39,398 bases of DNA. Origin: Bacilli bacterium. Lineage in GTDB: Bacteria; Bacillota_I; Bacilli_A; RFN20; CAG-826. Location: the NCBI GenBank assembly GCA_017454295.1, contig JAFTDF010000022.1:1-39398 (forward strand), read 5' to 3'. The translations under genes were made by a program, and so were the position numbers. Numbering within the stretch: the first letter of the stretch is position 1; every line of letters starts with the position of its first letter. Below, piece after piece: positions 10,561-33,800 of the stretch. Under the pieces are notes generated by a model. The model ran no database searches. It had not been told where the DNA came from and was given only the letters and a program-made list of their open reading frames with translations.

Positions 10561-11613
10561 ATGAACCAGCCAAATCCATTCACCTTATCTTTTGGAAAAG
10601 AACCGAAAGAATACATTCGCAGAACCGCCGAATACCATGAGATCATCGGAGACTTCGAAAAAGAGAACCCCGCTTCTTGCGTCTACATCATCACCGGTGT
10701 CCGTGGTTCTGGGAAGACCGTCTTATTATCCAGTCTCTACAAATATTTCGACGAAGCGGAAAAATGCATCGCCGTGGATTTGAACACGAACACGAACATG
10801 CTTGAGGATCTAGCCGCGGCCCTTTATGACAAAGCACCGATCAAGCACCGTTTCCTAAAAGGGGAGTTTAGCTTCTCCTTCTCCGGCTTATCGATTTCCC
10901 TCAAAGGGGAAAACCCGGTTACCAGCATTTCCCAATTACTGGAAAAAATGCTGACCGCTTTAAAAGCCAAGGGCATGAAGGTCATCGTCACCGTCGATGA
11001 CGTCGATACCGGCACGCAGATGAAGGCCTTTGTCAAAGAGTTCCAATCCCTCTTCCGCAAAGACCTGCCGATTTTACTGGTCGTCACCGGCCTTTTCAGC
11101 ACGGTCGGCACCCTCGAAAAACAAGAAGGGTTAACCTTCCTCCAGCGGGGAAAGAGGCTCTATCTTGGCCCGCTGAACATCCGCTATATCGCCTCTTCCT
11201 ACAAAGACATCTTCCGTTTGGATGATGGAAAGGCGTTGCAATTGGCGTTGCTGACAAAAGGATATGCCTTCGGCTATCAAGCCCTTGGCTATTTATTGTT
11301 CGAAAAAGGCGCCTCCCAGGTAGATGAAGATATCCTAAGAAACTATGACTATTACCTCGAGGAATACGTTTATAGACGAGTCTATAACGACCTCCCCGAA
11401 AAGGAAAAAGCCATTTTACGGGCCATGGCATTCCAAGGCATTACCACCAATAAAGGACTCGTTGAAGCCAGGGTGATCACGAATAACGAAATCAAACGTT
11501 ATAAGGATAAGCTGACGAAGAAAGGCATCTGTGCCACGCCAAACAGAGGGGAAATCGTGATTATCCTTCCCCGATTCGCCGAATATATCCGATTCGTGGA
11601 AAGCGTTTATTAA
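10561..11613 (+). CDS. P-loop ATPase with a C-terminal winged-helix-like region (350 aa)
   Basis: Walker A is GVRGSGKT (residues 46-53), Walker B is VIVTVDDVD (141-149), and a sensor-like VVTGLFS lies near 174-180. These fit the STAND/ATPase_2-like AAA proteins found in many copies in gut bacteria. The last 100 residues resemble a winged helix (KEKAILRAMAFQGITTNKGL...), so DNA or partner binding is likely. The ATG at 10561 has GGAGGT 7 bases upstream and a good promoter. The frame is open further upstream but only through the iterons. It probably forms a unit with the next ATPase gene, 118 bases downstream. The cellular role of this family is not established. Confidence 0.8.
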   Translation: MNQPNPFTLSFGKEPKEYIRRTAEYHEIIGDFEKENPASCVYIITGVRGSGKTVLLSSLYKYFDEAEKCIAVDLNTNTNMLEDLAAALYDKAPIKHRFLKGEFSFSFSGLSISLKGENPVTSISQLLEKMLTALKAKGMKVIVTVDDVDTGTQMKAFVKEFQSLFRKDLPILLVVTGLFSTVGTLEKQEGLTFLQRGKRLYLGPLNIRYIASSYKDIFRLDDGKALQLALLTKGYAFGYQALGYLLFEKGASQVDEDILRNYDYYLEEYVYRRVYNDLPEKEKAILRAMAFQGITTNKGLVEARVITNNEIKRYKDKLTKKGICATPNRGEIVIILPRFAEYIRFVESVY

Positions 11614-13929: not shown

Positions 13930-16900
13930 TCAAGACGGACTAACCTGGGTTAGGGTTAACGAGATGGTGAAGCCGTTGGAGTCTTTTAGCTGCGGCGCCG
14001 TAGTGAGCTTATCGTAACGATAGTCGATCATGATATAGACCACATAGGTAGTATCGGCGGCGAAGCTCGTCGATCCGGTGGTATAGGTGGCCGTGCCGTT
14101 ATACCAAGTGCCGGAATCATAACGAGCACTATCACGCATATAATCCAACGGGTTGGTATAGACGCCAAGTTCCGCATCAATGGTAGAGACCGTGAAGCAG
14201 ATATAATCGCGGATCGCCGAGGTGGCATTGAGACTAACGCCGAAGGTAACGGGCTTAGCAGCAGTGACTTCGAAGGAAATGGCTAGAACCATTGAAGTCT
14301 TATACTGCTTAACATCAGCTTGAGAGCTACCATTGGCGGCCGCATTGATCTGGTTCAGGTTCTTGAACTCGCTATCGATTTCGGAACCTCGAGTGGACGT
14401 GGCATAGACCTTGCCCGTTTTAATATAGAAGGAATAATAGCCATCCTCGTTGATGGTAATAACGTTGGTACCAACGCTTGTGGGCGCGTTTGTATAAATG
14501 TCGTCGGTATGGTCTTCTGGTTGAGCGGGATCGCCATCGGTCCACCATGAATCCGCCAGATCATAAATCCGTTGCACGCCGTCGAGATAAGAGACGAGGC
14601 GCAATTTGGTACCCGCCGTAGCATAGAAGCCGAAGTAGCGGGCAGCATTGGTGTTGGCGCTATCCGAGATATAGTTACCGGAACCATCTTTTAGACGGTT
14701 CATCTTTGTGGCTTCGTTGTAATTGAAATACTTCGGACTGGTGCCTTGCTCCAATTGAATATAGTAGCCTGCGCCTTTAACAGGAATCGGCGCGACCGCC
14801 AAGGTCATATTGCCGCCTTCGTTGACGACATAGAAGGCGAAGGTTCCGCCTTCTAAGAAGGTAAATGTGTTAGACGTGACACTGATATAAGCGGTCGAAC
14901 CACTATTAACGGCATTAACGGGAGTGGCCGCGCCACCGCGATAGGAATAACTGACGGTAAACGAGGCCCCTTCTTCTACATCAACCCCCGCTTCATAAAT
15001 CAAGTAATCATCACCATCGCCAACACCCATGGAAACCGGGTCATTCTCCCCAACGGTTAAAGTGCCGGTGTATCCGCCATAAGGAACGGCCGATAAGTAA
15101 TAGCTCGAGCTGTTGTCTGCATATAGATAGAGGTTATAGGCATCACCAGTAGTCGTGGTGATATTGCTGACACCACCGCCTCCGAGTCTGCTATTCGTTC
15201 CATCCACAGTGGACAAGGTGATGCTGAGCCAATGCACCGACGAGGAAGCAAGAGATGGATTGCCGTCCAACCAAACGATACGGAAGACGGACGTGCCCGC
15301 AGTAAGTGAGAAATTCGCAACTTCGGCAAGGTTGAAGTTGTATTCATTCGCCGCCAAAGCGGATGAGGTGAGCTTATAACCTGTGGAGAGCTTCCATTGA
15401 TCAGCTGCGGCCGTGGTTCCGGTGAAACCAGCACCGACAAGGTAATAGTCTTTGCCGCTCCCAGTCGGAGAGGTCAACGGGCCGCTATAATCGAGGGCAA
15501 TAGCCACGTTTCGAACCGTGTACGTATCATCCAAAACGGTACTCGCCAAGATGCTCATCATATTATGATTCTCGGCCACAACATCAGATAAAGCTGTCGT
15601 TTTGACACGCGAATTACTCGGGTTGCCGTTAATCGCGTCCCAGTCTTTGTAGGCATTACCGCCGTTGTTAATAATCACGGAAGCGGAGGATGGAGCTGAG
15701 AACGAATAATAGTTTGCGAACTCATGATGGAGCACCAAATCACAAGGATTGGGCATTGCATATCCGGAAACGAATAGATAAGCGTAAAGCTCATAGGAGT
15801 TTACACCTATGGCTAAGCGTGACGCCGGGCTATCCTCAACATAATAAGTGGAGTTGGTTCTCTGCGTAAACTTCAAGTATAGGGTCATATTTGCAGAAAT
15901 CGCCGAATTATAACGCGTGCCAGTGCCGACATTGGCAACGCTGGAATAGAGATAGTGGTTAGAATCTTGGTCATACACATTCCAAGCGGATCCCAAAACG
16001 ACGCCATAGATCCCCTCACCATAAGTGTAAGTCGGCAAAGTAGATCCCTTATCAAGGGTTTGCGGTACACCTAAATCACCAATATCCACCGTGGTGGCGC
16101 CTTTAACGGTAACCACTACAGTTTCACGCCAATAGATGGCATATAAGTTAGCAGGGACACCAGAGGCGACATTCATACCAAGTGCGGCGTTGCCTTCTTT
16201 TGCGATGGCAGTCGCATAATGATGGAATTCGAAGTTAGTAGCCGCGGTTGCTCCTGTAGGCGGGGTAATGGAGTCGATGGTTGGATTCGTGAAATTCGTA
16301 AGATTCACCGTCACATCAAAACTGGCTTTATCGCCGCTAGCATCCGCGCTAGACGAAGCTCCGGAATAACCTTTCCCGGTCGCAGCATCGGCATAAGAGA
16401 TGATATGGATGATGATTTGAGAACTATTGTTGAGGTAAATATTCGCTGTGAAAGCACGGATTGCTTTGATGTTGCCGGAAGAAGAAGTGATGAAACCCGA
16501 GGAAATATAGTGGGTCTCGTGATCGGAACCAATCCAAATATTAGGAACGACACCTTGCACATGGACGATTTTGAATTCGTCGTTTGCGGCAAATGTGATC
16601 GTGGTCCACTTGGCCAAATCTGTTCCAGTCGGGCTTTCAGAAGCGATCATTTCACGTGTCGTGTCATACGGGTTATCCGTGTCCATTCGCCAATCAATCA
16701 CCCAGGTTGCAGAATCATAACTTGCGCCGGTGCCAATCAAATACCAGCCCGTGCCACGGTTCGTGATATTGGACCATTCACCTGAGGAATAGGTATAGCA
16801 AATTAACGATCCAGCGGCTCGGAAGAGGTTGGCGGTTTGCTCGGCTTTCTTGTTCCAGTTGGCTTCGTCGGTTCCGGAGACAAAGTCTGGGGCATTCGCG

Positions 16901-19900
16901 GATGTCCAACGGACAAAGATCACGCCCGCCCAAGTACCCGTGCCGGTATTGCCTGTGAAATAAGTAGTAGAATCAACGCGCGATAATTGAACAAACTTAG
17001 AAGCGGTTCCACCGAAGAGCCACATCGCGTAGATGTCAGAGGCCGGCGCGCCAAATGTATTGGCATCTAAATAGACGTCTTCATCCGAAATGAATTCTTT
17101 CACATATTCGCCTGTGGAGGCAGTGCCACTACCAGCCGTTGCGGATGTGACACGATAAGTATGGCCGCCGTTAAATGCCGACCATGCAGCGCCCGTTTTT
17201 ACGGTATCGGGACTCTTGCCAATAACATTGGCCCAATTGCTGGGATTCGGGGTGGCGTTTTTCGTCACGGCGACAAATACGATATTGGTATAGATGCCGG
17301 CGGGCACGGTATAAGTGTATGCGCCATAACTGGCGACCATTTTGCTGCCGAAACCATAATCGGCGCTGGGCCCGTTACAGGGCCAAGCATAATAATCGTT
17401 GGTATCCTCGCCCCAGTCACCGGGAACGAAGCAATAGACCTCACCAGTGTAGAAATAATCGGCTTTTGCGTAATAACGGGCATACAGCGTGAGGCTATTG
17501 CTAGCGGTGTCACTCGTCTTTACGGTTCCATCGGGATAATAATACTGGGTAACAAAGTTACCGTTATTCTTTGTCCAATAGCCGCCGAAGAGGTAATCGG
17601 AACTGGCGGGAGTGGGCAATTCGCTAGAACCAGCAAGGGGCGTAAAGGCATCGCCAGAATCAAGTTGCAACGAAGTAACGGAACCCGCGGTACCGCCATT
17701 CTCGTCCAATGTAATCACGACTTTCTTGGTAAAACACAATTCATAGTCGTTGTTGAAATACACATAGAACGTACCCGCAGAGATACATCTAGCGTTATTG
17801 TTAGCTCCTTGCATGCCATTGAACCAAGAAGTCGAACCGCTGTTGACTTTCCCGTCCATATAAACGATTTCTTCGGAACTATTTACATAGATAGCTTTGA
17901 ACCCTTGATCATTGCCGGTTCCATAAGAGGCGCTTAATCCAATATAGACCACCAGATCATTTCTCCAAGAGGCTTGGTTGTTGGAAGAATCATAGGTACT
18001 GGCATCGGCGGCGATTGCCTCATCGAAATCCCAACTGGTGGTATAGGAAGACCCATCGCGGCTCAAACCGGTACCCATCAAATAATAGCCAGAAGTCTTC
18101 GTCCAATGAGCGTGAAGCGTGGTTGTGCTATTGGCCTGGTCCCAAACATGGGCACTCGATCCATCGGCATTGTAGTATTTCGTGCCACTGCCTCCAGAAG
18201 AAGCATAGTAACCGGCAAAGGTATAGTTGGTGCGCGTCGGCAAAGTGATAGACGGCATGGCCGCACCGAATTTTGCAGTAACCGAAGAAGAGCCACCACT
18301 GCCGGATTCAAAATCAAACGATACGGTATAGTCGTTGGCGATCCACCTTGCATATAAGGTGTAAGTGGAATCCGTTTTGTTCCAGGTCCTAGCCGATCCC
18401 AGCTGAGCCGTGTAATACTGGGTTCCACCGCTACTGGCCGAGGTATCGTACCATCCGCCAAAGGTGTAACCGCTCCTCGTAGGCGCGGCTTGGTTTAAAG
18501 GAGTGGGCATATTGCTATCGTAAGTTGCGGTCACCGCGCTTGGGACCGTCCCACTGCCACTGTTGAGACTAAAGGAAACGGTAGTTGTTTTTGCCGTCCA
18601 AGAGGCACGGACCGTAATCGCACCATAGGCATTGGCGGAAAGATTCAATGTTGTACTGGACGTAACCGATGCGGTCCCGGATGTTGGCCCAGAAGTAACG
18701 GACCACCCGCCAAAGTTATAGCCCGTCCGTGTAGGAGTGGCCAAAGTCTTCGTTCCGTCGGAAGCGGATATTGTGTAGGAAGTATTCGATATCGAAGTGC
18801 CTCCATTTACGTTATACGTAATCGTATAAGACACAGCCTTAGCGGAAATGCTGCCAAAGTTATAAGCGGCATCGCCTAAGTTATAAGTTCCAACGCGATA
18901 ATCGTTGGTTTCGCCGATTTGGACCCAACCATCTTGCTTAGCCCAGCCGGCCCTTAGCGTTGCATAGGCATATACAGTCGTATTGTAGTTATAGGATGTG
19001 CCAGAAGAATCGCCGCTTGCGCTGCCTGTATTATTGGCAGTAGAAAGATAAACTCCCGTTACACCGCTGCCAGCCGAAATGGTAACTGCATGGCTATTGA
19101 TCGTCCACTTGGCATACAGGGTTTTGGTGGCATCGGTGATGTCCCATTTTTTCGCAGAGCTGCCGTCAGCATTGTAATATTTTGTCCCCGATCCGTTCGT
19201 TTCAGTGAAATAACCACCAAAGGTGTATCCGGTTCTCGTCGGCATCGTTGCGGAAGGCATGGCCGAATCATAGGTGGCGGTAACCGGGGAACTTCCATTT
19301 AAGCCGCTTTGCATATCCAAGGTAACAGTCGTGGTCTTGGCGGTCCACTTGGCATAGAGGTTGACGGTGCCGCTGGTCGCGTAGTTAGGCGTGGTCAGCG
19401 TCGCCCCGGCAGCTCCAGCAGACTGCGTGCATGCGTCGTCTTTGTACCATCCGCCGAAGGTCCAACCGGTCAAAGACGGGGCACTTCCGAGGGTGGCATT
19501 CGAGTCGTAGGTCCAGGTCTGGCTGGAGGGTACCCCGGTGACGGATGCCGTGGCCCCCACCGGCTTGTTGGCGTTGTAAACAACGCTGTAGGTATTCGCG
19601 ACCCACTTCGGGTAAATATCGATAGATTCACCAGAGCCAAGTTCCAGGGCATAGGTCTCGCCGGCTTGGTAAGTGTTGGTTCCGTCGGTCCATTCCTCGT
19701 CCGATACAATGTGATATCCCGTCTTGGTATAAGACATCGCTGGCATGGTCACGTTTCCGCCAACCGCAACATAAACTGGATTATCTTCAGGGGCGGAACC
19801 TCCATCGCTCCCATCTCCGTTAAAGGCTACCGAATAGCATTCAATCCAATATGCATATAAGGTTTTGGTTGCATCGGTGATATCCCATTTCTTTGCCGAG

Positions 19901-22326
19901 CTACCATCGCCATTGTAATACTTGGTACCGGAACCTTCGGTTTCAGTGAAGTAGCCCGCAAAGGTGTAGCCGCTTCTGGTCGGCATCGACGCGGAAGGCA
20001 TCGCCGAATCATAGGTGGCAGTGACGGAATCGGAACCGCCCGTGCCACTTTGCTTATTTAAAGTCACGGTCGTGGTCTTGGCGGTCCACTTGGCATAGAG
20101 ATTGTAGGTACCACTGGTGGCATAGTTGGGCTTGGTCAGCGTATCGCCGGCATCGCCCGACTTGTTCGTGCAACCGGCCTCCTTGTACCATCCGCCAAAG
20201 GTCCAGCCGGTCAAAGACGGGGCGCTGCCTAATGTGGCATTGGAGTCGTAGGTCCAGGTCGCGTCGGAAGGCACTCCGGTGACTGAGCCTGTGGCCCCCG
20301 CCGGTTTGCTGGCGTTGTAGGCGACGGTGTAGGTCTTGGCCGTCCATTTTGCATAGAGATTGACGGTGCCGCCGGTGGCATAGTTGGGCTTGGTCAGGGT
20401 GTCGCCTGCATCACCCGCCTTGGTCGAGCACCCGGCCTCCTTGTACCATCCTCCGAAGGTCCAGCCGATGAGGGACGGGGCGCTACCGAGCGTGGCGTTG
20501 GAGTCGTAGGTCCAAGTGTCATCGGAAGGCACACCGGTGACGGAGCCCGTGGCTCCCGCGGGTTTGTTGGCGTTGTAGGCGACGGTATAGGTGTTGGCGG
20601 TCCACTTGGCGTAAAGAGTCTGGGTTGTCCCAGTAAGATTCCAAGTCCGGTTTGATGTTCCGTCTGCTTTGTAATACTGGGTTCCACTACCACCAGTCTC
20701 GGACCAATAGCCTCCAAAGGTATAACCTGTCTTTGCCGGTAAATTTGCAGCAATAGAAGGCATATTGGATCCATATACTGCAGTTACCGAACCAGCACCA
20801 GCCGTCGTGGCAGACTGATTATTCAAAGTAACAGTGGTCTTTTCGGTAAAGGTGTATGTATAGGTTGAATCGTTGGTGAAGGAAAAGGAGAAATTGGCGT
20901 TAAAAGCTCGATTGGCGACGATGTCTTTGGTGCCGGTAGTTTGGGCAGTCACCATCCCACTGCTTGGAGACGCGCTAGTATGACTTCCCGGATCAAACCA
21001 GGTGTCGACATCGGAATAGGGGTCACCAAATGAAAACAGTCGTTTTTTTACATTGCGATAAACTTTGAAAGTCGCATCTTCGGCAAAGGATAGCGAATAA
21101 GAAGTCCCGGTTGTGATTTCTGTAGCACTACCATCTTTGTAATAATAGAACGCCGTGGTGGTGGAAACGCTCGCGGCCTCGTCCTTAATGGTATCCGCTT
21201 GGACCGAGCCCCATCCCGTCAGTTTATATTGGTTATTGGATAAGTTGAAATTGCATTGTGCAGCATTCCATTTTATCCCGTCGTTATACATGTTCGAAAT
21301 CGTTCCAGAACTAGACGTTCTTACAAATTCGATTTTTGTTGGGGTCCACGAAGTTATAGACGAAATCGATGTACGCCATACCGCATATCTTCCAGACCCA
21401 GACAGCCAGGTTACCGAAACATCGGCGGTATGCGAAGAGTCGTCCCAAATGTGCGCAAAAATCTTTGCATCGGAAGAGGACCAGTTGTTTCCGTCATCAC
21501 CGACACCACCTAGGTAAAGATAAATGTACTGAGAACTATAAGAAGCACCGTCTACGGTGGTAGAGCGTTTCGGTCCCTGCCCCGGCATTTTGCCGACAGA
21601 GTTGCCGCTCTTTTGAATTGCGGCAGGCTCTTCTTCCAGCGCCACTTCCTCGACGAGGGATGGCTTCGATGCCGATGCGTTGCCATTGCGAACCAAAGCA
21701 ATTTTGTTGGTATCGCTATTGAGGATGATGTCGTAGTTACCATCCTGGTGAATTTGGATGTTATTACCAGCGATGGTTGCCAACGAACTGTAAGAGGAAT
21801 CGATTGTGACAGTAACCCAGTCATTAACAGTTGACGAGTTGGCAAAAGAATACTTCTTGACGCGGAGTTCCTCGTTGTTGTAGAGATCAATGCCATCTAA
21901 GTAAGCTTTGTTCTTACCACCAGAATCGGTCATTCTTTGACCGCCGGCGTATTTCCACTCATCCGCCGAGGTCTTGCCGTTCGTTAAGGCCCAGGTTGAA
22001 TCGCCTAATAGGTAATAGCCGGCACTGCTTGGAGCATCCAGGGTATAAGAGATAGTATCTTGGTCAAAATTATCCGTTGCCTCCGAATAATCATGCATCG
22101 CTTCATAATCCGCACCGTCTTGGCTGCTGAACTTGTAAGTCTTGACTCCAGTGGCGTTGATATCGGTTGTGCCGCTTTCCACTCCGCCGGTAAGAGACGG
22201 ATTTAAATGGGAGAACCACGCCATGGTGGAAACGGTCGTGGCAACAAGAGCGCTTAAAGTGACCAGGCCGGTCGCCATGATCACCATGATTCTTTTGCTC
22301 TTCTTCAAGAACTTGAATAGTTTCAT
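13930..22326 (-). CDS. Giant secreted InlB-repeat protein, intact copy (2798 aa)
   Basis: This is the only one of the three giants with a proper 5' end. ATG at 22326 is followed by a basic N-terminus, a long hydrophobic stretch and MAWFS, the look of SipW/TasA-type exported proteins. Order of parts: N-terminal domain (about residues 45-220), acidic linker ending in KMPGQGPKR (about 245-255), a beta module, eleven InlB/Listeria-Bacteroides repeats of 75-90 aa, several beta modules opening with GYYLxGxG, one more InlB-type repeat, and a C-terminal domain shared with the other giants. No LPXTG, sorting signal or C-terminal membrane segment is seen, so anchoring is unclear. The frame opens 52 codons further upstream, without the signal. 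The start has no clear ribosome site. An adhesin or glycan-binding role is likely but inferred. Confidence 0.9.
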   Translation of the reverse strand: MKLFKFLKKSKRIMVIMATGLVTLSALVATTVSTMAWFSHLNPSLTGGVESGTTDINATGVKTYKFSSQDGADYEAMHDYSEATDNFDQDTISYTLDAPSSAGYYLLGDSTWALTNGKTSADEWKYAGGQRMTDSGGKNKAYLDGIDLYNNEELRVKKYSFANSSTVNDWVTVTIDSSYSSLATIAGNNIQIHQDGNYDIILNSDTNKIALVRNGNASASKPSLVEEVALEEEPAAIQKSGNSVGKMPGQGPKRSTTVDGASYSSQYIYLYLGGVGDDGNNWSSSDAKIFAHIWDDSSHTADVSVTWLSGSGRYAVWRTSISSITSWTPTKIEFVRTSSSGTISNMYNDGIKWNAAQCNFNLSNNQYKLTGWGSVQADTIKDEAASVSTTTAFYYYKDGSATEITTGTSYSLSFAEDATFKVYRNVKKRLFSFGDPYSDVDTWFDPGSHTSASPSSGMVTAQTTGTKDIVANRAFNANFSFSFTNDSTYTYTFTEKTTVTLNNQSATTAGAGSVTAVYGSNMPSIAANLPAKTGYTFGGYWSETGGSGTQYYKADGTSNRTWNLTGTTQTLYAKWTANTYTVAYNANKPAGATGSVTGVPSDDTWTYDSNATLGSAPSLIGWTFGGWYKEAGCSTKAGDAGDTLTKPNYATGGTVNLYAKWTAKTYTVAYNASKPAGATGSVTGVPSDATWTYDSNATLGSAPSLTGWTFGGWYKEAGCTNKSGDAGDTLTKPNYATSGTYNLYAKWTAKTTTVTLNKQSGTGGSDSVTATYDSAMPSASMPTRSGYTFAGYFTETEGSGTKYYNGDGSSAKKWDITDATKTLYAYWIECYSVAFNGDGSDGGSAPEDNPVYVAVGGNVTMPAMSYTKTGYHIVSDEEWTDGTNTYQAGETYALELGSGESIDIYPKWVANTYSVVYNANKPVGATASVTGVPSSQTWTYDSNATLGSAPSLTGWTFGGWYKDDACTQSAGAAGATLTTPNYATSGTVNLYAKWTAKTTTVTLDMQSGLNGSSPVTATYDSAMPSATMPTRTGYTFGGYFTETNGSGTKYYNADGSSAKKWDITDATKTLYAKWTINSHAVTISAGSGVTGVYLSTANNTGSASGDSSGTSYNYNTTVYAYATLRAGWAKQDGWVQIGETNDYRVGTYNLGDAAYNFGSISAKAVSYTITYNVNGGTSISNTSYTISASDGTKTLATPTRTGYNFGGWSVTSGPTSGTASVTSSTTLNLSANAYGAITVRASWTAKTTTVSFSLNSGSGTVPSAVTATYDSNMPTPLNQAAPTRSGYTFGGWYDTSASSGGTQYYTAQLGSARTWNKTDSTYTLYARWIANDYTVSFDFESGSGGSSSVTAKFGAAMPSITLPTRTNYTFAGYYASSGGSGTKYYNADGSSAHVWDQANSTTTLHAHWTKTSGYYLMGTGLSRDGSSYTTSWDFDEAIAADASTYDSSNNQASWRNDLVVYIGLSASYGTGNDQGFKAIYVNSSEEIVYMDGKVNSGSTSWFNGMQGANNNARCISAGTFYVYFNNDYELCFTKKVVITLDENGGTAGSVTSLQLDSGDAFTPLAGSSELPTPASSDYLFGGYWTKNNGNFVTQYYYPDGTVKTSDTASNSLTLYARYYAKADYFYTGEVYCFVPGDWGEDTNDYYAWPCNGPSADYGFGSKMVASYGAYTYTVPAGIYTNIVFVAVTKNATPNPSNWANVIGKSPDTVKTGAAWSAFNGGHTYRVTSATAGSGTASTGEYVKEFISDEDVYLDANTFGAPASDIYAMWLFGGTASKFVQLSRVDSTTYFTGNTGTGTWAGVIFVRWTSANAPDFVSGTDEANWNKKAEQTANLFRAAGSLICYTYSSGEWSNITNRGTGWYLIGTGASYDSATWVIDWRMDTDNPYDTTREMIASESPTGTDLAKWTTITFAANDEFKIVHVQGVVPNIWIGSDHETHYISSGFITSSSGNIKAIRAFTANIYLNNSSQIIIHIISYADAATGKGYSGASSSADASGDKASFDVTVNLTNFTNPTIDSITPPTGATAATNFEFHHYATAIAKEGNAALGMNVASGVPANLYAIYWRETVVVTVKGATTVDIGDLGVPQTLDKGSTLPTYTYGEGIYGVVLGSAWNVYDQDSNHYLYSSVANVGTGTRYNSAISANMTLYLKFTQRTNSTYYVEDSPASRLAIGVNSYELYAYLFVSGYAMPNPCDLVLHHEFANYYSFSAPSSASVIINNGGNAYKDWDAINGNPSNSRVKTTALSDVVAENHNMMSILASTVLDDTYTVRNVAIALDYSGPLTSPTGSGKDYYLVGAGFTGTTAAADQWKLSTGYKLTSSALAANEYNFNLAEVANFSLTAGTSVFRIVWLDGNPSLASSSVHWLSITLSTVDGTNSRLGGGGVSNITTTTGDAYNLYLYADNSSSYYLSAVPYGGYTGTLTVGENDPVSMGVGDGDDYLIYEAGVDVEEGASFTVSYSYRGGAATPVNAVNSGSTAYISVTSNTFTFLEGGTFAFYVVNEGGNMTLAVAPIPVKGAGYYIQLEQGTSPKYFNYNEATKMNRLKDGSGNYISDSANTNAARYFGFYATAGTKLRLVSYLDGVQRIYDLADSWWTDGDPAQPEDHTDDIYTNAPTSVGTNVITINEDGYYSFYIKTGKVYATSTRGSEIDSEFKNLNQINAAANGSSQADVKQYKTSMVLAISFEVTAAKPVTFGVSLNATSAIRDYICFTVSTIDAELGVYTNPLDYMRDSARYDSGTWYNGTATYTTGSTSFAADTTYVVYIMIDYRYDKLTTAPQLKDSNGFTISLTLTQVSPS
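18100..20840 (-). repeat. Eleven InlB-type repeats in the intact giant
   Basis: Units of 75-90 aa each carry GYTFxGW/GYF... and end in LYAKWT or a variant. Repeats 2, 3 and 6 form a close subfamily (KPxGAT, WTYDSNATLGSAPSL, GGWYK), and repeats 4 and 7 another (SGTKYYN, WDITDATKTLYA). The eighth is degenerate. Repeats 2 and 3 are adjacent 258-bp units, very similar at DNA level, implying recent duplication. Confidence 0.9.
22172..22198 (-). other. Shared junction box in the intact giant gene
   Basis: On the minus strand this holds GTCTCTTACCGGCGGAGT followed by GGAAAGCGG, encoding the first residues after the signal peptide (SLTGGVESG). The core CCGGCGGAGT recurs in the same reading frame at the first homologous residues of the two 5'-less giants (CCGGCGAAGT in the first of them). 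Confidence 0.6.
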
Positions 22327-22595
22327 AGTCGTATGTGCAGGTTTTTCTTTATGAAAGCCCTTACATTGTAATCCATTCCCCCTAATAGGGGAACAACAAA
22401 TTTCGTGCCTCAATAGCTTTGTGGACCATTTTACCCTCAATTTTAGATATGATTTTGCCTCGAAAAACAGCGCGGTTTCCAACTAAAACCCAAGCCAAAA
22501 TCCGAGCCTGTTTTCGCTGTTTTTCGAGAGCTGTTTTTGAGCCAAAAAACAAGGTGAGCAATACGCGTTGTTTCACTCATCGTGAATCACACTAA
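22327..22595. promoter_or_regulatory. Control region between the intact giant and the first 5'-less giant
   Basis: This gap holds no gene. For the leftward giant a -10 candidate TACAAT lies at 22370-22365, with a TTCCCC/GGGGAA dyad (22376-22393) upstream and no clear -35. A perfect 14-bp inverted repeat and three near-tandem GCTGTTTT units lie at 22459-22540. A TTCAC/GTGAA dyad lies at 22572-22586. No convincing rightward promoter was found. Confidence 0.45.
22459..22528. repeat. Perfect 14-bp inverted repeat with 42-bp spacer
   Basis: CTCGAAAAACAGCG at 22459-22472 and its exact reverse complement at 22515-22528. Partial extra copies of the right arm flank it, at about 22506-22514 (CCTGTTTTC) and 22530-22540 (GCTGTTTTTGA). 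Confidence 0.9.
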
Positions 22596-22604
22596 GTAAG
22601 ATTC

Positions 22605-25600
22605 GTGTGTCATTCGCTTTCTTCTAAAAACCAAAAGATTCCCAAGCACTTTTCTATTCATGCTAGCTTTGCTAGAAAGCAAAAGAATCAGGCAGCCCTT
22701 TGGTGTAACTGGTGTGTTCCCGGCGAAGTGACTGCGGGGAACACGGACCTCTCCATCGTAAGTGTGACCGGAAGCAAATTTTCCTATGATGATGTGAACT
22801 CGACTACCGTGGATTATAACCATGGGACATCCATCTCTTACACCTCGTCTGGAACCCGCCCGGTGGACAATTATAGCGTCGGGGAACTGGCGGAAGATTT
22901 CGACACCCCGGCAGGCGGAGTTGGTTATTACATCACCGGGGATGCCACTTGGGTAGGATCCCTGCAAGAACATTCTGGGAAAACAAGCGCTCAAAAAGAA
23001 GAATTGGCCGGGAAATACAACGCTTCGAGGAAACTGACCGCGAAAGGCAAACTGACGGATAAAACCTTTTATCTCGAAGGGGTTTCGATCAAAGCGGTGA
23101 ATGAAAAAATTCAGATTCGCCGTCATTATTTCGTGGAAAGCGGCGGAAAGACATCCACCAAAGACGGTTTCGTTACCCTAAGCCTGGATTCCAGCGCCTC
23201 TTCTTACGCCTCCATTGAATCGAATGCCCTAAAGTTCTCGTCTACCGGCACATATACCATTTGGTTCAATGAGACCTATGAAGACACCACCGGCAGCAAA
23301 AGAAACGAGGGAACCATCGGTTTAATCAAGACCTCTTCTTCCACACCCGACAACCCAACTCCTGCTAATTTGATGGAAGAGATAGACCAAAAGCAGCAGC
23401 CTTCAAAAGGGCAAGCCAAGCCCTCTTTAGGTAGCGGACCTTCCGAAGCGAAAAAGCCCGATAGTGGACCGAAAAGAGCAGAACACGACAATTCCAATTA
23501 TTATTTGGTCGGAAGTGGTTCTTTCGAAAGCGGAACTGATTGGTCAACCGAAACGGGATTAAGGATGAGAAATGGCGGAGGCAACAACGCCGGTGCCCTT
23601 TTTGGAGTTTACCTAACTGCAGGTGATGTTTTTCAAATCAAATATGTCAACGGAAATGCGGAAACTTGGTATGGATGGAGTTCTCTGAAGAATTCAGGCG
23701 CTTATTCGAGTTTCAGGCCTGCTTATTATGATTATTATAATAACTGGACTTGGGAAAACTGGGGTGGAGGAAACGGTGATATCACTGCCGACGGAGCTCA
23801 CGATTACTATGTAAATAACAATGACAATTATTGGGGTATGGGGAGATGGTCTGGCACGGTTGGATGGACAACTTTTAATGGCCTTTGGCAAGGCGGAAAT
23901 CTCTATAAATATACAAACGGGCGACAAGTTGGAGACACGGTTGCGACCGGTTTTAAAATCTATGGCACAGACATCTCTAGTGGCGATTTGACTTATCAAA
24001 CGAATGGTAACATCGTTGTTTCCACCACTGGTTATTACAACATTTATTACAATTCCTCAGAAAACAAGGTTGTCATAGACGGGATGACAATGCCGGTTTT
24101 GATTGGTTCAATTAACAACACCAGAAATGGAAGCCGTTCTTCATACACCGAATCCACGAGCACTTTTGCTTTCTCTAGAAATGCATCCACCGGTTATCTA
24201 GAGTTATCTTCTTTCCTGCTTCATAAAGATGATACCGTGAAAATCTATGGCACAAAGAACGGAAGCGGCAAATACGCCAGTTATAACTCCAACCTCTCTT
24301 CAAACTATTTCGCCTTAAGCGATTCTGAGAAGTATATCAAAATCAAGAAAACTGGTTTGTACACATTCAGTCTTTGGAAAGATATATGGGAAGAGACAAA
24401 TCCTCATGATGATAGTTTCAAATCAGGCAATCTTTCGTCTATATCTTTTGGCTATTTGACTACCGCTGTTACTTTAAACCAACAAAGCGGATCCGGAGGG
24501 AGCGACTCGGTAACGGCATCTTATGATGCGGCAATGCCATCCGCAACCATGCCGACAAGAAGCGGCTACACATTCAGCGGTTATTACACAGGAACCGGTG
24601 GGTCCGGGACGAAGTATTACAACGCGGATGGCTCTTCGGCAAAGGCATGGGATTTCGAAGACGCGACGAAAACGCTCTATGCCTATTGGAGGGCCGTTTA
24701 TGTGGTTCATTATGACGGAAACGGTAACACCGGTGGAACCGCTCCCTCCGATAGCGAGGAAACGGCTTCGGGCGATAACGTCACCGTTGCCGATATCGGC
24801 ACCTTGGTCAAAATCGGATATATATTTGACCATTGGGACACTAAGGACGATGGCAGCGGCACCGATTATTTGCCCGGCGATGAGCATAATTTCGACAACA
24901 ATACGACCCTTTATGCGATTTGGACACCAATCACCTATTCCGTGAGGTTTAACAAAAACGATGGTTCGGGAACGACTTCTACCCAAGATGGCACCTTCAC
25001 CTATGGAACCGGCAAAACATTAAGCACGATTGCCAGTTTATCGTGGAGCAAAACGGGTTATTCCTTCCTTGGATGGGCTTATACCAGCGACGGCGCGAAA
25101 GCCATAAACAACGGGGCTTCTTTATCCACCCCGAGCGATGACTACGTCCCGGCAAATAACGGAACATTGGATCTGTATGCCAAATGGCAGGCGATTTCCA
25201 CCGATGTTACCTTGGATAACGATGGTGGATCGACCAATAAAACCATCGTCGCTACTTATGATTCGGCAATGCCGTTAACCGTAAAAGGTGGAGGCGCATT
25301 AAGCGCACCGACCAAAACCGGTTATCTTTTCGGCGGTTATTTCACAGCGAAAAACGGGGGCGGAACCCAGTATTACACCTATTCCAATAGCACGCTTTCC
25401 TCCACCAGGAATTGGGCGGAAACCAGTGTGACCACCCTCTATGCGAAGTGGACCGCGATTACCTACGAAGTAAAATACAATGCGAACGGTGGATCAGACA
25501 GTATGTCCAACTCCACTCACACCTACGGCACCGCAAAAACCCTCACCGCGAATGCGTTCACCAGAACCGGCTATTCCTTTGCGGGCTGGGCCACTACTTC

Positions 25601-27248
25601 CGATGGAGCAGAGGTGTACAACGACGAACAAAGCGTTACTAACCTAGCGAACACGCAAGGAGCGATCTTTAATCTTTATGCCGTTTGGTCTCCTGATGGC
25701 CACACCATCACCTTAAATGGCAACGGCGGCACGCCAAGCAGCTCTTCCTTCACCCATTATTACGATACTCCGGAAAGCTTATCCGGTTATACGGCCACAA
25801 GAGACGGCTATACCTTCGTGGGTTGGTTCGAAGCCACGACTGGGACCGACCATGTCACAGCCGTTCCTTCGAGTCTCAATGAGGCAGACACTTATTACGC
25901 CCATTGGGTGCAGAATACCTCGGTGGTCTTAGACGTTAGCAATGTCGGTTGGGGCACCGTTTATTTGAAATCATGGATTACCGTCGATGGGGTATATCTT
26001 GAAAACGAAACAACCGCTACTCAAATCATTGGCAGCAAATTATTTATCAAATCCTTCCCATCCGGGGCAAGCTTCCTGGTGGAAAACGCCGCAAACGCCA
26101 CGGGCAGTGACCGCACAGCGAACATTACCGATATCAGTACGAATGGTACTGGTTACTTGGTTGTCCACTCCTCCACCGTCGATTACTCTAATCGCAAGTG
26201 GAATTGGCAAAGCGATTTGGATGAAGGCAGCGCCGCCATCACGGTTGATAGCGATATTGCCGCTTCCGATGGCGACCATCGGATGGGCTACGCCATTTGG
26301 TGGGGGCTTGACAGTAACCCAAATGATTATGTTTTAGAGACTGGACTCGTACTGAATGCGGGAGATACATTCTATTTGACGGTGAACGGGGTGAAGAAAA
26401 CCACCTTGGACAGCGATTATCACGCGACCAGCGACGGTACAAAATGCACCATCAAACGAGATGGACGGTACATCTTCTTCTATACCACGGGTGGGAATAT
26501 CGCCTTGGTCGAAGTCCCATTATTGGGAAATGGCTATCACATCATGAAAACCAGCGGATCTAGCAGCGATTCCTTCGAAGGCGGCGTGAAGATGCACGAG
26601 ATTTATGAGGCCGATGCAGTTAACATCGCCACCTACAAGTTCTTCAAGGTCACCGCGGAAGACGTGACCAACGGAACCAACAAGATTTATATCCGTAGCT
26701 ATGTGGATAACGAACAGGAAACTTTCGCACCGCAAGGCACGCCTACCGTCGGCACCAAGAGCGGGAATTTCGTCCAAGGTTTGGCGGCCGGTTATTACAA
26801 CATCTATCTCTACGAATCCGGCGGCAACACAATCTTCGATGTCACGACATCCGGTGTTGGAGATTTCTTCACGTTCAACTATTTGGATTCTTCCAAATCC
26901 GGTTCCTCCGCCACCATTCAAGCCCAAAATACGACCTTCGTTCTTGAAGTGTGCTTTTCCACGGTCAGCCAGCAAGCGTTGGCGGTGAGTATCATACCCA
27001 CCAACCCATTCTCCACTTTCATCGACGTGAAGTATTACATCACCGACGAAAAGCAAGAAGATCCCTACGTCTATGGACGGGAGCGGTATTATGCCGATTC
27101 CAATTCCAGCGAAGGGATTACAACCACGGCAAATCAGCCAGCAAAGTTATACTTTGCTTATATCGTCATGGAATACTCGACTTGGTATGTGATGAGAGAG
27201 TGTCCACAAGGATCCTTATCGTTTGTAATACAGGGGGTGCAGGCATGA
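22605..27248 (+). CDS. Giant InlB-repeat protein lacking its 5' end (silent copy 1)
   Basis: The frame is open from 22596 to 27248, but the only start before the homologous part is GTG at 22605 with no ribosome site, and no signal peptide follows. Homology to the intact giant begins at the junction box (22712-22730): PGEVTAGNTD here, TGGVESGTTD there. The order of parts is the same: N-terminal domain with GVGYYITG, linker ending in DSGPKRAE (near 23475), beta modules, six InlB repeats (24462-25913), beta modules and the shared C-terminal domain (from about 26920). A vestige ASFARKQ near 22664 resembles the end of the signal in the small partner proteins. About 1510 homologous codons remain open, so selection has acted. 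The stop overlaps the next start. It may be a silent cassette, a recent truncation, or an assembly artefact. Confidence 0.75.
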   Translation: MCHSLSSKNQKIPKHFSIHASFARKQKNQAALWCNWCVPGEVTAGNTDLSIVSVTGSKFSYDDVNSTTVDYNHGTSISYTSSGTRPVDNYSVGELAEDFDTPAGGVGYYITGDATWVGSLQEHSGKTSAQKEELAGKYNASRKLTAKGKLTDKTFYLEGVSIKAVNEKIQIRRHYFVESGGKTSTKDGFVTLSLDSSASSYASIESNALKFSSTGTYTIWFNETYEDTTGSKRNEGTIGLIKTSSSTPDNPTPANLMEEIDQKQQPSKGQAKPSLGSGPSEAKKPDSGPKRAEHDNSNYYLVGSGSFESGTDWSTETGLRMRNGGGNNAGALFGVYLTAGDVFQIKYVNGNAETWYGWSSLKNSGAYSSFRPAYYDYYNNWTWENWGGGNGDITADGAHDYYVNNNDNYWGMGRWSGTVGWTTFNGLWQGGNLYKYTNGRQVGDTVATGFKIYGTDISSGDLTYQTNGNIVVSTTGYYNIYYNSSENKVVIDGMTMPVLIGSINNTRNGSRSSYTESTSTFAFSRNASTGYLELSSFLLHKDDTVKIYGTKNGSGKYASYNSNLSSNYFALSDSEKYIKIKKTGLYTFSLWKDIWEETNPHDDSFKSGNLSSISFGYLTTAVTLNQQSGSGGSDSVTASYDAAMPSATMPTRSGYTFSGYYTGTGGSGTKYYNADGSSAKAWDFEDATKTLYAYWRAVYVVHYDGNGNTGGTAPSDSEETASGDNVTVADIGTLVKIGYIFDHWDTKDDGSGTDYLPGDEHNFDNNTTLYAIWTPITYSVRFNKNDGSGTTSTQDGTFTYGTGKTLSTIASLSWSKTGYSFLGWAYTSDGAKAINNGASLSTPSDDYVPANNGTLDLYAKWQAISTDVTLDNDGGSTNKTIVATYDSAMPLTVKGGGALSAPTKTGYLFGGYFTAKNGGGTQYYTYSNSTLSSTRNWAETSVTTLYAKWTAITYEVKYNANGGSDSMSNSTHTYGTAKTLTANAFTRTGYSFAGWATTSDGAEVYNDEQSVTNLANTQGAIFNLYAVWSPDGHTITLNGNGGTPSSSSFTHYYDTPESLSGYTATRDGYTFVGWFEATTGTDHVTAVPSSLNEADTYYAHWVQNTSVVLDVSNVGWGTVYLKSWITVDGVYLENETTATQIIGSKLFIKSFPSGASFLVENAANATGSDRTANITDISTNGTGYLVVHSSTVDYSNRKWNWQSDLDEGSAAITVDSDIAASDGDHRMGYAIWWGLDSNPNDYVLETGLVLNAGDTFYLTVNGVKKTTLDSDYHATSDGTKCTIKRDGRYIFFYTTGGNIALVEVPLLGNGYHIMKTSGSSSDSFEGGVKMHEIYEADAVNIATYKFFKVTAEDVTNGTNKIYIRSYVDNEQETFAPQGTPTVGTKSGNFVQGLAAGYYNIYLYESGGNTIFDVTTSGVGDFFTFNYLDSSKSGSSATIQAQNTTFVLEVCFSTVSQQALAVSIIPTNPFSTFIDVKYYITDEKQEDPYVYGRERYYADSNSSEGITTTANQPAKLYFAYIVMEYSTWYVMRECPQGSLSFVIQGVQA
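22712..22730 (+). other. Shared junction box of silent copy 1
   Basis: GTGTGTTCCCGGCGAAGTG. It faces the box of the intact gene (22198-22172) in inverted orientation, 513 bases away, and has the same reading frame through GGC G. Confidence 0.55.
24462..25913 (+). repeat. Six InlB-type repeats in silent copy 1
   Basis: Six units, each ending in YAxW. The first closely matches repeats 4 and 7 of the intact giant (SGTKYYNADGSSAK, ATKTLYAYW). Confidence 0.88.
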
Positions 27249-27754
27249 ATTTAAAGCGAAACATTCTTGCCATCGGTGCGTTGGCCTCCATTACCATCGC
27301 AATGGGTGCCATCGGTGGGGTAACGTATGCCTCATTTAAGAGAAACCAAACAATTAGCGAAACGATCCCCCTCTCTTATTTATATCTAAGGCCAACCGGA
27401 ATATGGGAATATGATAGCCCCGGCTTTGCTTTGTACTATTTCAAATCAAGCGACAACTCCGATCACGGCACCATCACTCCAGTCGGAAACAAACTCGATG
27501 CGGATGGCACCCATCACATCTATTGGTTCGAATGGCCAGCGGCAAAATACGACCGTTTCGTTTTCTTGCGCGTCAACCCTTCCACCTGGAGTACCTACGA
27601 TCCGTTTGGAACGGGGTTTTGGACGCAGACTCTCGACTTAAACTTCTACGCAAAGTGCAACGCGTTTGAAATCACGGTTTTGAATCAAGATAACAGCGGG
27701 AAATCGAACGGATCTTGGAAAATCTATAGTGATTCCCGATTCAGAGATCCTTGA
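27245..27754 (+). CDS. Small secreted partner protein 1 (169 aa)
   Basis: ATG at 27245 overlaps the stop of the giant gene (ATGA) and has AGGGGG at 27232-27237. The N-terminus has Lys and Arg, a hydrophobic stretch, and ends in TYASFKRNQ, the pattern of SipW-dependent or TasA-like exported proteins. The mature part (about 130 aa) looks like one beta module of the giants. It shows YLRPTG, a central YDRFVFLRVNPSTW, then W.QTLDL, a short strand and GKSNGSWKIY. It is probably secreted with, or as a subunit of, the giant protein. The family is not named. The carbohydrate-binding-module resemblance is inferred from the pattern of Trp and Tyr and the module copies in the giants. A terminator follows. 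Confidence 0.8.
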   Translation: MNLKRNILAIGALASITIAMGAIGGVTYASFKRNQTISETIPLSYLYLRPTGIWEYDSPGFALYYFKSSDNSDHGTITPVGNKLDADGTHHIYWFEWPAAKYDRFVFLRVNPSTWSTYDPFGTGFWTQTLDLNFYAKCNAFEITVLNQDNSGKSNGSWKIYSDSRFRDP

Positions 27755-27774
27755 TTCTAAGTGTCGTTCTTTAT

Positions 27775-27795
27775 GCGGGTTTTAGCCCGCTTTTT
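27775..27795 (+). terminator. Terminator after partner protein 1
   Basis: GCGGG (27775-27779) pairs with CCCGC (27786-27790), followed by five T. It sits only about 10 bases before the junction box of the next giant, so that gene cannot be read efficiently from upstream. Confidence 0.8.
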
Positions 27796-27803
27796 GGCCA
27801 TTA

Positions 27804-27830
27804 GTGTTTTCCCGGCGGAGTAGAAAGCGG
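27804..27830 (+). other. Shared junction box of silent copy 2
   Basis: GTGTTTTCCCGGCGGAGT followed by AGAAAGCGG. It matches the box of the intact gene at 18 of 20 bases over its last 20. The codon before its homologous part is a TAG stop (27802-27804). Confidence 0.6.
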
Positions 27831-27840
27831 ATCACCAGAA

Positions 27841-30800
27841 TTGACGGTCCAAGGAATCACCGGATACAAGAATGTTTTGCCCAACGACGAAAGCGGTGCA
27901 ATTGACTATAGTACGGAAAACATCCAACACTACGATGCGGGAACCGGGACTTCGGAACGTATTAACACCGATATCTCCGGAGAAGACGAAAACTTTGATA
28001 TCCCCGATGAAGGCGTTGGTTACTATGTGATCAAAGGCCACAACGGTTCTTTTAGTGCCGCCGATTCGAGCTATGTCTATAAACTCACCCAATATGAGGA
28101 AGGGGACAATCGGGTCAAGCGGGCCTACTCCACTTCCAACATTACTCTATCGGCGAATGATGTTTTACGTTTCAAATATTATGGTTTTTCCGATGGCCAC
28201 ACCACTTATGAAACGCTACCAATAACCACATCCGGTAATTCTAAAACCGAAATTAATGAATCTGGTGACGTAAAAGTTGTTTCTGGTTCAAGTGTTTCAT
28301 ACAAAGTATGGCTCGATTACGACACCACATCCGGAAGAACAGCATGGTTGGAGACCGTTGGGTCGTTTGTGGAAGAAGTCGAAGAAGAACAAGTCAGCAC
28401 GATTCGTTCTAACACCCCAAAAATGCCCGGGCATGGGCCAAAGAGGGCAACATTCAGTGGCGGCACCAGGGTTTTCGTCGAGTATTCCGCCGTATCATCC
28501 TGGTGGACCAATCCTTTCATTTACGTTTGGAACGGGAGCACTACTGCGAAAAAGGCCATGACAACCGGCGATAATAACTATCTTTGGGTCGATTTGCCCG
28601 ATGGAAACTGGACTAATTGCATTTTCTATCGAGCTGAGAAAATAGATTCGACTTGGTGGAACCAGACTACCGATCAATCTTTTGCAACAAGTAAAAACGT
28701 ATTCACATTTGATGGAAACGGCGGAGATAAGAGCAAAACCGGTTCTTGGTCAACAGGGTCGTTTTTAAGCGGAACTTATTATGTCAAAGACCCAACTAAT
28801 AATTGGGCAGCTGACGGAGCACGCCTATCCGCAAATCTATGTAATGGCCCTTCCGCAAATTCGTGGATAAATCTAACAAGGGTTGGAACCTCTCAGTATT
28901 ATATCGCTACGCTTCCTGAAGGTTATTGGAACAATATTATTTTCTGTAGGATGGACCCCAATGGGTCAAATCAATGGTCGAGCCGATGGAATCAAACCGA
29001 GAATCAATCCAAGCCCTCTGACTCTAAAAAGTGCTTCACCTTACCGTCTGCGCCTGAAGGGCAGACTACATCGGGAGGATCCTGGGGCAGCCACACCTTC
29101 ACTTTGACTGTCAGTGCAGGGAGCAATGGAACAGTTTCTGGTGGGGGAGACATAACTATAGGCGGTTCATCCACTATTTCAGCCACTGCCAATTCTGGTT
29201 ATCACTTTGCAAAATGGGATGACAATAACACGAACGCTTCCCGCTCTTTGTCTAATCTCGCCCCTGATTCCAAGATAAGCTACACGGCTTCGTTTGCAGC
29301 CAATACTCTAACGGTTAAATACAACGCCAACGGTGGATCCGGCTCTGCCATGTCCGATTCCTCTTTGACCTATGGGGCATCTGGCTGGGACACCCTCCGA
29401 ACCAACACCTACACCAAGGGAGGATACACCTTTGCTGGGTGGGCAACTTCGGAAGACGGTTCGGTCGCATATGCTGATGGAGGCCCTTTAACTGTTTCCG
29501 ATTTCTCCGCCGCTTCAGGAACTTTGAATCTATATGCTAAATGGACCGCCAACAAATATAGTGTGTCTTTCTACGGAAACTATCCAAACGACGCAACCTC
29601 TACCTCTTCGCTAATCGAGACTAAAACAAACCAAACTTACAACACAAATTACACTTTGCCATCCTCGAATCCTTCCTATACAGGTTGGACCTTTGCTGGT
29701 TGGTACGATGCGGCAACCGGTGGGAGCGAAATCACCGGTTCCACTCTCATCACTACAGCGGGAAACCACAACATCTACGCTCACTGGACGGCAAACACCT
29801 ATACAGTTCGGTTCCATAGCAACCATGATTCCGATGTAACCGTCGATCAAGATTTTACCTATGATGCAGCAGCAGCTGCGCTAACTTCCACAGCCACCTT
29901 GTTCAATACGGCTAACTTCGAGAAATCTGGCTGGGTATTTGATGAATGGACAGCAAATGCTGACGGAACCGGAACCTCCTATACCGATGGCCAGTCGGTT
30001 CGAAATCTAACTGCTACTGTAAACGGTGTTTATCACATCTATGCCCAATGGAAACAAACTTATAACGTAATCTATAACGCTAACGAAGCCACCGGAGGAA
30101 GCGTTCCTACCAGCCACTCGAATATCGATTTCGGAACCGGAATCACCGTGAAAGGCAACACGGGTTCATTGTATAAAAACGGCTATGTCTTTAATGGTTG
30201 GAATACGGCGGACGATGGAAATGGAACCCATTATGCCGTTGACGCTACTCCGGCAGCCTTCAATGCGAATACCACCCTCTTTGCTGAGTGGGTGGCCGAC
30301 ATCTATACAATCGTTCTCGATAACGACAGTGCGACTAGCGCCGGCACCACTTCAATCTACGAAAAATATGGAGTCGGTTACTATCTAGATAGCGCCGCTT
30401 CCTCCCAGCAAATGACGGCATCTTCCAACCCAATTACAAAGCCAACAAAAAACGGCTATGTTTTCGGCGGCTATTGGACCGTGGATGGCGGAAGCGGAAC
30501 CAAATACATCGATGAAAACGGCAAACTAACCTCCAGCGCGGTCACCACCACTTTCCATCAAAATTCCGGCACCCTGAAGCTTTATGCCAAATGGACATTA
30601 GGGGTTTATGAAATCCAACTCGATAACGACAGTGCGACTAGCGCCGGCGCCACATCGATCTATGAAAAATATAACACCGGCTACTACCTCAACTATTCAG
30701 CAGAAGCGGTCAGCAACCAGATGTCTCCTTCTTCCAACCCAATCGATGTTCCGAGAAAAACCGGTTACACCTTTGGCGGTTATTACACCGAAGAGAATGG

Positions 30801-33800
30801 AAACGGCACCCAATACATCGACACCAACGGCAACCTGACCTCCAGCGCGGTCACCACCACTTTCTATGATGGAATCACGCTCAAACTCTATGCGAAATGG
30901 ACCGCTAATAAATATACCGTTACCTTAAATAATGAAGATGCGGATGCACTTACGCCTGGGGCTGACTCTGTTACTGCGACCTATAATGATGCCCTCCCTT
31001 CCATCGCCGCAAACAAACCTGTTCGTTCCGGCTATACCTTTGGTGGTTATTGGACCGTGGCGGGCGGTGGCGGCTCTATGTATATCAAAGCCGATGGCAC
31101 CTCCAATATCGACCACTACCTCATCGATGGCACGACAACTCTCTATGCTAAGTGGTCACGCACCGTCAGCTTGGATGGCTATTCTGTCGATAACACAAGC
31201 ACTCAAAACTTCACATTAATTTGGCATGCCGTTGCTAGTGGAAACATCACCGCTCCCAGCAAAACCGGTTACACCTTTGGTGGCTACTTCACCGGAACTA
31301 GCGGATCGGGAACAAAGATATTTAACGCAAACGGCACCCCCGCAAACGCTTGGAATGTTGCCGGCGATACGCTGCATGCCCTTTGGACCGCCAATACCTA
31401 TTCGGTCACGTTGAACGGGAATGACGGAACTCCGGCCAGCCAAAGCATCACCGCAACTTACGATGCCGCAATGCCAGGAACCAATACCTCAAGTGCCGCT
31501 TTGACCATTCCCACTCGAACCGGTTATACGTTTGGGGGTTATTGGACTAGTTCCAATAGTGGAACCACCTTGGTCACCCAGTATTACAACGACGATCTCA
31601 CTTCCACAAAGTCTTGGGTTGAAACCGATGTCACTGTGCTCTATGCGAAATGGACAATCAAAACAACGAGAATTACGTTTAATGGAAACGGAAATGACAG
31701 CGGAAGCGTTCCTAACTCAATCGACGTTAACTATGGTTCTGTCCCATCCTCTCTAGGGGCAACCGCGTTGGTGAAAGCCGGATATCACTTTGGCGGTTAT
31801 TGGTACAGTTCTAACGGTGGATCGACTCTATCGAAACGGTATTTCGCACCAGCCGGGTCATTCTCTCAGGTAAATTGGGATAGGGAAGAAGCATCTATCA
31901 CGCTTTATGCACAATGGATTGCGAACGATTATAAAGTTCGTTTCTATTCGAACGGTGGAACCGGCGGGCCAACCACTCAGACCTTTACTTATGATGCCGC
32001 TGCCCAAGCTCTCACCTCCTTTGACTCTTTAAGTTTTGCCAACACCGGCATGCATTTCGTGAAATGGAACACTCAAAGCAATGGTGAAGGCACCGATTAC
32101 TCCGATGGGCAATCAGTACGTAACCTAACGACGGCACTCAATGGCTATTTCGATTTATATGCCGTTTGGGCATATAACGAATACAGCGTTGCCTTTGACA
32201 AGAACGACGGTGGAGGGTCTAACGGCTCTCAATCCGGATTCGTCTACAACACCTCTAAAGCCCTCACGGCTTTTGAATCGCTAAGCATTACGGCCCCCAC
32301 TGGAATGCATTTCGTCGGATGGGCCACCAGTAGCGAAGGATCCAAAGCTTACGACGATGGGGATTCTCTCGTCACGCCAACCCCCACTCCAAGTCATAAT
32401 GGAACATTCACGCTTTATGCCCTTTGGGAATATAACACCTATACCGTCACTTTGGATCCGAGCAAAAATGGAGTCACGGTTCTAACAAACGGCGATACCT
32501 CAACTACTGCCACATTTAACTCCGCAATGCGTTCCATTACCGTTCCGACTGCGGATGGCTATGTCTTCCGCGGATATTACACCGGAGCGGATGGAGCAGG
32601 AACCAAATACTATAATCAAGACGGCAGCTCTGCCAATACATGGAATCTCACTTCCGACACCACTTTGCATGCTAAGTGGGAACTCAAAACCAAATTTGAA
32701 CAAGGAGATGTTATCTATTACGTCCCCAGTGATGCGTGGCTGGCTTCTCCCGAAGGCAAGACCACTTATACCGCTGCTTACTTTTATACCTCCTCCGCGC
32801 CCTACTACAGATGGTGGGTCAAATTCAGCGACTTCACGACAGTCGAAACTTCTCCAAGAACGCTCTTTAGCGTAACCGTTCCAGGGAACTCCACCATCTC
32901 CACATGGGATGGAATGCAGTTCTGCCGTTACGATTCCACCAAGGATGGCAACATTAACATTAACGCTGGGCCGGATGACAATACATCAAACCTTTGGAAT
33001 TACACCAGCCCGTTCACTTATACGGCTGGGAAAGACCTCTTATATGGCGTCGAGGACAGCAACTGTTCGGGATCCAACACGAGTTGGAAGATTTACCGCG
33101 CAACCATGCCTAGCGCCGATAGGACCTACTACTATTTCGATAACACCAACACCTTCACCGGAGGTGGGAAAGTTCCGACCGCATATATTTGGAGCAGCAA
33201 CTATTACGTCAAGAGTTATGGCATCCAGTATTCAGCATGGCCTGGAACAGCAATGACCCAGCCGGATTCGACGATAACACGTCACGAAAATGTGCCGATC
33301 GAATATGTTTGGTACATTACAATTCCATCAATCTATGATCATATTATCTTCGATAAAGGCCCAGGAGCAGGCAGCAGCGATCCTGCTTCCCAAACCGCAA
33401 ACTTGACCTTAGGTACGGGGGAGAACCAAGGACAACCCAACTGGTTCTTTGTCGTAACCGGCGAGCAAGACAACAACAATAACTGGACCGGCCGTTGGGC
33501 TGAAGCAATCTACCCCGTCATTCTCCATGGCGTCTATTTCCTTGATAGCACGCAAATCACGACTAATATAGTAGAAACGGGATACTCATTCGGGATCGAA
33601 CCATATAGGCCCACCGGGGATTATGATGATGGCTACTTCTATTTTGGAAACGGCACAACTGGAGTAGGCTACCGCTTCTATTCTGGCGCCACCGCTTCTT
33701 ATTACACCGCGGCTACTTGTGCCAACAATGAAAGGTTCGTCATTGGTACAAATGCCGTTGATGGTCTGACGTTCTCCGAAGGTTCTTATCATCTTTATGT

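Follow-up and report, generated by a model that had tools for sequence, protein, structure and literature searches.

We identified a locus at which DNA inversion is likely to switch the expression of three giant genes for secreted, adhesin-like proteins. The window analysed here, 39,398 nucleotides in length, is contig C7 of a 1.63-Mb genome, which is assembled in 47 contigs and estimated to be 89.8% complete; outside the window, selected parts of this genome were read. Next to the giant locus lies an array of small cassettes, and here, though not at the giant locus, alternative junctions directly document recombination at CGCCTGG boxes. Flipping of the giant locus itself is what we infer from its architecture.

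Giant genes and their heads

Two giant open reading frames diverge near 22.2 kb, and a third lies on the same strand as the second. Giant 1 (13930–22326, minus strand) is 2798 residues long and currently bears a head with a signal peptide: its start, MKLFKFLKKSKRIMVIMATGLVTLSALVATTVSTMAWFS from the ATG at 22326, is signal-peptide-like, and no other giant of the three has a signal peptide. The coding head (22194–22326, minus strand) consists of the signal peptide and the first mature residues and ends at the box described below, while the upstream portion of the putative invertible segment (22327–22716, minus strand) is presumed to be a 5′ control region. Giant 2 (22719–27248, plus strand) is headless and about 1508 residues long counted from the box. 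It begins CCC GGC GAA GTG and has no signal peptide; the sole listed in-frame upstream start, the GTG at 22605, adds 38 residues that are not signal-like. For these two genes the original prediction, of an intact leftward giant facing a rightward one that lacks a signal peptide, was borne out. Giant 3 (27811–35292, plus strand) is also headless. An in-frame TAG at 27802–27804 stands 4 bp before the box, the frame opens at 27805 and the gene begins two codons after the stop; it has no start codon or signal peptide, yet it is open for 2495 codons. A terminator-like hairpin with a T tract (27775–27795, plus strand) lies about 15 bp upstream of giant 3 and its box.

All three giants contain List_Bact_rpt/Flg_new repeats (PF09479) above the curated cut-off. 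They resemble one another at their C-terminal ends and over the part that follows the box; the box is where the pairwise similarities begin (residues 42/35, 47/4 and 37/1). Giants 2 and 3 are each followed by a small secreted partner on the plus strand, of 169 residues at 27245–27754 and of 177 residues at 35289–35822, and each partner gene overlaps its giant by ATGA. The partners are homologous (E 4e-10), and in both the signal peptide is followed by TYASF. No small secreted partner gene accompanies giant 1.

Three further open frames were noted in the genome. A BspA-type leucine-rich-repeat protein (36886–38724, minus strand) lies between the giant locus and the cassette array. In the first 14,000 positions of contig C27, at about 5734–9909, there is a further List_Bact_rpt giant whose repeat frame is broken by a TAA, and which is possibly broken or headless. 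In the first 20,000 positions of contig C4, a 3219-residue open frame (122–9778) begins near the end of the contig, and no signal peptide is visible; a head could be hidden by the contig break.

The box at the starts of the giants

A common box, TTNCCGGCGRAGTR, is found at the starts of all three giants in one codon phase. Box 1 (22180–22193, minus strand, TTACCGGCGGAGTG) is the junction of the head and giant 1, box 2 (22717–22730, plus strand, TTCCCGGCGAAGTG) is the start of giant 2, and box 3 (27809–27822, plus strand, TTCCCGGCGGAGTA) is the start of giant 3. The original prediction had named a box in inverted orientation at which the leftward and rightward giants share a codon phase; both copies, CCGGCGGAGTG at 22180–22190 (minus strand) and CCGGCGAAGTG at 22720–22730 (plus strand), are present, the phase is as claimed, and this 11-bp box extends to 14 nt. 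With up to two mismatches allowed, the 11-bp box has 17 matches in the window against 19 expected, and is as frequent as in shuffled sequence. The 11-bp inverted pair by itself is weak evidence.

Three sites in the 1.63-Mb genome, and no others, match the 14-nt pattern, and all of them are starts of giants; this rarity is partly built in, as the pattern was derived from these three sites. Across the three genes, 11 of the 14 box columns are identical, the corresponding share being 8% in the upstream flank and 13% in the downstream flank; none of 200,000 random triples reached 11 identical columns. Independent support comes from where the third site lies and from its phase, on a giant that has no head. 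It is because the third giant starts at a third copy of the box, in the same phase, that the case for the box is strong.

Predicted fusions at the giant locus

In the mechanism that we propose, the head would comprise the upstream region, the start codon, the signal peptide and about 10 following residues (22194–22716), lying between inverted boxes. A crossover at the box would join this head, in frame, to a single one of the headless cassettes (giant 1, 2 or 3), and the giants without the head would stay silent. Inversion of 22194–22716 would take the signal peptide off giant 1 and place it on giant 2; inversion of 22194–27808 would place it on giant 3 instead. Inversion in silico of the first segment joined the head in frame to giant 2 (...NPSLPGEVTAGN...), as had been predicted for the rightward gene, and inversion of the second joined it in frame to giant 3. 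The switch logic originally proposed holds in this respect, and the toggle between two genes gives way to a switch that is at least three-way.

The invertible segment had been expected to carry both a promoter and a signal peptide. The signal peptide is there; a consensus scan of 22100–22800 found no promoter, with 0.8 matches expected by chance, and we infer that the promoter is carried on the head segment. The expected inverted junction, of the head with the rightward giant at the box, was not found: the assembly holds three giant boxes only, all in one arrangement, and no alternative junction at any of them.

The FAW cassette array

A search for the head led to contig C35, whose array of cassettes borders the right end of the window, about 4 kb from the end of the giants' locus. 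This array comprises a single head with a signal peptide and 12 cassettes that are headless, about 200 residues long and each preceded by a CGCCTGG box. The head gene (9896–10669, plus strand) is 257 residues long, and its signal peptide ends in STFAWF. The 12 further open reading frames, of 178–236 residues, are on the minus strand in nine cases and on the plus strand in three, and all begin at CGCCTGG in the phase of the head, without a start codon or signal peptide. Most are preceded by a GC-rich hairpin and by TTTTCCTTTCGCCTGG or a near variant of it. As in the window, the upstream and signal-peptide segment is flanked by an inverted box (9588, minus strand) and by the head box (9976, plus strand). 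Apart from the box the cassettes have little in common, their identity to the expressed one being only about 15–25%, and conservation in the silent cassettes reaches upstream of FAW (TTTTCC), where no head exists. There is a promoter-like TTGAAA-17-TAATAT at 9761–9789 before the head, such matches being at chance level in the region.

The array also has what look like decayed FAW cassettes, at 5378 (minus strand) and 10718 (plus strand), where CGCCTGT and CGCCTGA follow the usual TTTCCTTT. At 13537 (minus strand), a box, GTGCCTTCGCCTGGATT, is followed by just 13 open codons; the flank upstream of it is similar to border X (see below) and to the head flank (TAGTGC), and this site may mark the array's other border.

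By the same mechanism, the head of this array would link directly to minus-strand cassettes, and plus-strand cassettes would be reached after a prior flip within the array. The hairpins ahead of silent cassettes would block read-through.

Alternative junctions at the FAW box

The border flank of the array, X, occupies 39207–39277 of the window (plus strand) and is identical over 71 nt to C35:1–71. At the FAW box TTCGCCTGGT (39276–39285, plus strand), X is joined to different cassettes on the two contigs: to cassette A on C35, and on C7 to the start of headless cassette B (39279–39398, plus strand), which runs to the contig end and matches the C35 minus strand from 3938 with 1 mismatch in 121. 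The X–A and X–B arrangements are related as the exact product of one inversion, between the plus-strand box at C35:72 and the minus-strand box at C35:3938, and the pair would exemplify the prior flip proposed above for plus-strand cassettes. The only sequence common to the two arrangements at the junction is CTTTCGCCTGGT, and these 12 nt are too short for a k-mer chimera, making an assembly chimera unlikely. Both arrangements are most likely present in the sequenced population. They could possibly stem from two co-occurring strains and not from ongoing switching; in either case the recombination event is recent, since the joined pieces are nearly identical.

Recombinase candidates

The search of the genome for a recombinase found three tyrosine recombinases, a XerD-like enzyme on C33, a XerC-like enzyme on C17 and a 380-residue enzyme on C25, and no serine recombinase or invertase. 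None lies beside the locus; the original prediction had proposed a search near similar boxes. The C25 enzyme has integrase-like relatives and is solitary, lying between rubrerythrin-like and glgB-like genes both here and in two sister species. It diverges faster than its neighbours, with about 62–66% identity against 81–90%. Switching would probably be driven by a site-specific tyrosine recombinase, and the lone C25 enzyme is the best candidate. No box arrays were found near C25-type recombinases in 14 neighbourhoods in relatives. In one sister species, an apparent N-terminal fragment of a second recombinase (G001:C38, 8070–8548, minus strand) lies beside the C25-type gene.

The giant box reversed (CTYCGCCGG) resembles the FAW box TTCGCCTGG, at a marginal p of about 0.05. 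This likeness in sequence hints that one enzyme may serve both, and is not used here as evidence. It may be that a single tyrosine recombinase resident in the genome drives two head-swapping systems, adjacent but separate and each with its own box, one for three giant adhesin units and one for 13 small surface proteins; we give this proposal somewhat less than an even chance.

Occurrence in relatives and viruses

Across 116 genomes, a profile of the C35 cassettes matched only C35 itself and the final 120 bases of the window. In a search of 31 genomes from the genus, the FAW box was found in its own genome only, except for a single chance-like match in G001. Matches to the giant box in the 116 relatives were rejected, as they lie in unrelated places, and FAW box matches in viral contigs (6) and genome contigs (49) are single copies without cassettes. 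The head and the giant box were not found together in viral contigs. Matches to the N-terminal part of giant 1 in relatives lie mostly within internal domains, and there are no arrays in the two genomes with signal-peptide look-alikes (G006 and G066). Neither an array nor a linkage of recombinase and array was found in the relatives searched.

Discussion

Several other explanations of these loci need to be considered. Giants 2 and 3 could be headless leftovers of old rearrangements or duplications that are no longer switched on, in keeping with an assembly in which the inverted form of the giant locus is not found. Such a frozen remnant is nevertheless unlikely: the two reading frames remain uninterrupted for 4.5 and 7.5 kb and still have their overlapping partner genes, the boxes have been kept though the neighbouring DNA has diverged, and recent recombination is seen in a similarly organised array 4 kb away. 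We think it very improbable that silent cassettes are copied into one expression site by RecA-type gene conversion, as in pilE or vlsE. C35 does have one expressed gene and many silent cassettes without 5′ ends, but gene conversion requires long shared sequence, which cassettes with about 15–25% identity and little but the box in common do not offer; the boxes, moreover, flank the head as inverted repeats, and X–A and X–B differ by exactly one inversion.

The odd junctions might also be chimeras, this being a draft metagenome-type assembly of 47 contigs in which the X–B junction falls at a contig end. The chance of this appears slight, given the mere 12 nt that X–A and X–B share at the junction, the position of the giant locus well inside its contig, and a headless architecture that is seen at two loci independently of the junction. 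Finally, the boxes are translated (as xGGV or xGEV, and as FAW) near the end of the signal peptide, and might be a mere conserved coding motif with no role as recombination sites. This is hardly credible when silent C35 cassettes conserve TTTTCC upstream of FAW with no head to process, and when the junctions of X–A and X–B switch exactly at the box. We favour an inversion switch.

The closest parallel is the vsa locus of Mycoplasma pulmonis, where site-specific inversion by the HvsR tyrosine recombinase puts the promoter, the ribosome-binding site and the first 714 nt of coding DNA upstream of the 3′ portion of a silent gene (PMC2268961; PMC4534519). As expected of a vsa-type system, the giant locus and C35 each have a single head with a signal peptide, silent copies without a 5′ end, and a shared box at the border of head and cassette in one codon phase. 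The 714-nt vsa head contrasts with the short signal-peptide heads here, and the present system also differs from vsa in its giants of 1500–2800 residues, in its pair of neighbouring loci whose boxes differ, in the terminator-like hairpins ahead of silent cassettes and in having no recombinase beside the locus. The likeness would be one of mechanism and logic, and we do not claim membership of the vsa family. The vpma locus of M. agalactiae (with Xer1) and the vsp locus of M. bovis are multigene surface-protein loci with site-specific inversion around one active promoter (PMC2268961). They link whole open reading frames to the promoter through sites in 5′ untranslated DNA, whereas here the crossover would be inside the coding frame. 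The S-layer gene BT1927 of Bacteroides thetaiotaomicron is phase variable by inversion between inverted repeats (PMC12548429). In that case the promoter alone is inverted, whereas here a coding head would be exchanged between cassettes.

In shufflons of the R64 type, a tyrosine recombinase rearranges cassettes that follow a short box and lie in both orientations. The several cassettes, their two orientations and the short box are alike, but the shufflon swaps C-terminal ends of one gene, and here the N-terminal head would be shared and nearly the whole protein swapped. The literature searched yielded no system of this kind beyond the mycoplasmas, although this does not prove that none exists.

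The model predicts exact junctions, which can be searched for in existing reads, and it would explain both the breaks of draft genomes at such loci and the pseudogene look of 'headless' genes. If it is true, mycoplasma-type exchange of a coding head, going beyond the promoter alone, is used by another, uncultured bacterium, in which it would serve adhesin-like proteins of 1500–2800 residues together with small secreted proteins, a dozen in number. Two head-swapping systems under one recombinase would amount to shuffling of coding heads in the manner of vsa beyond the mycoplasmas, with headless cassettes that are insulated by terminators.
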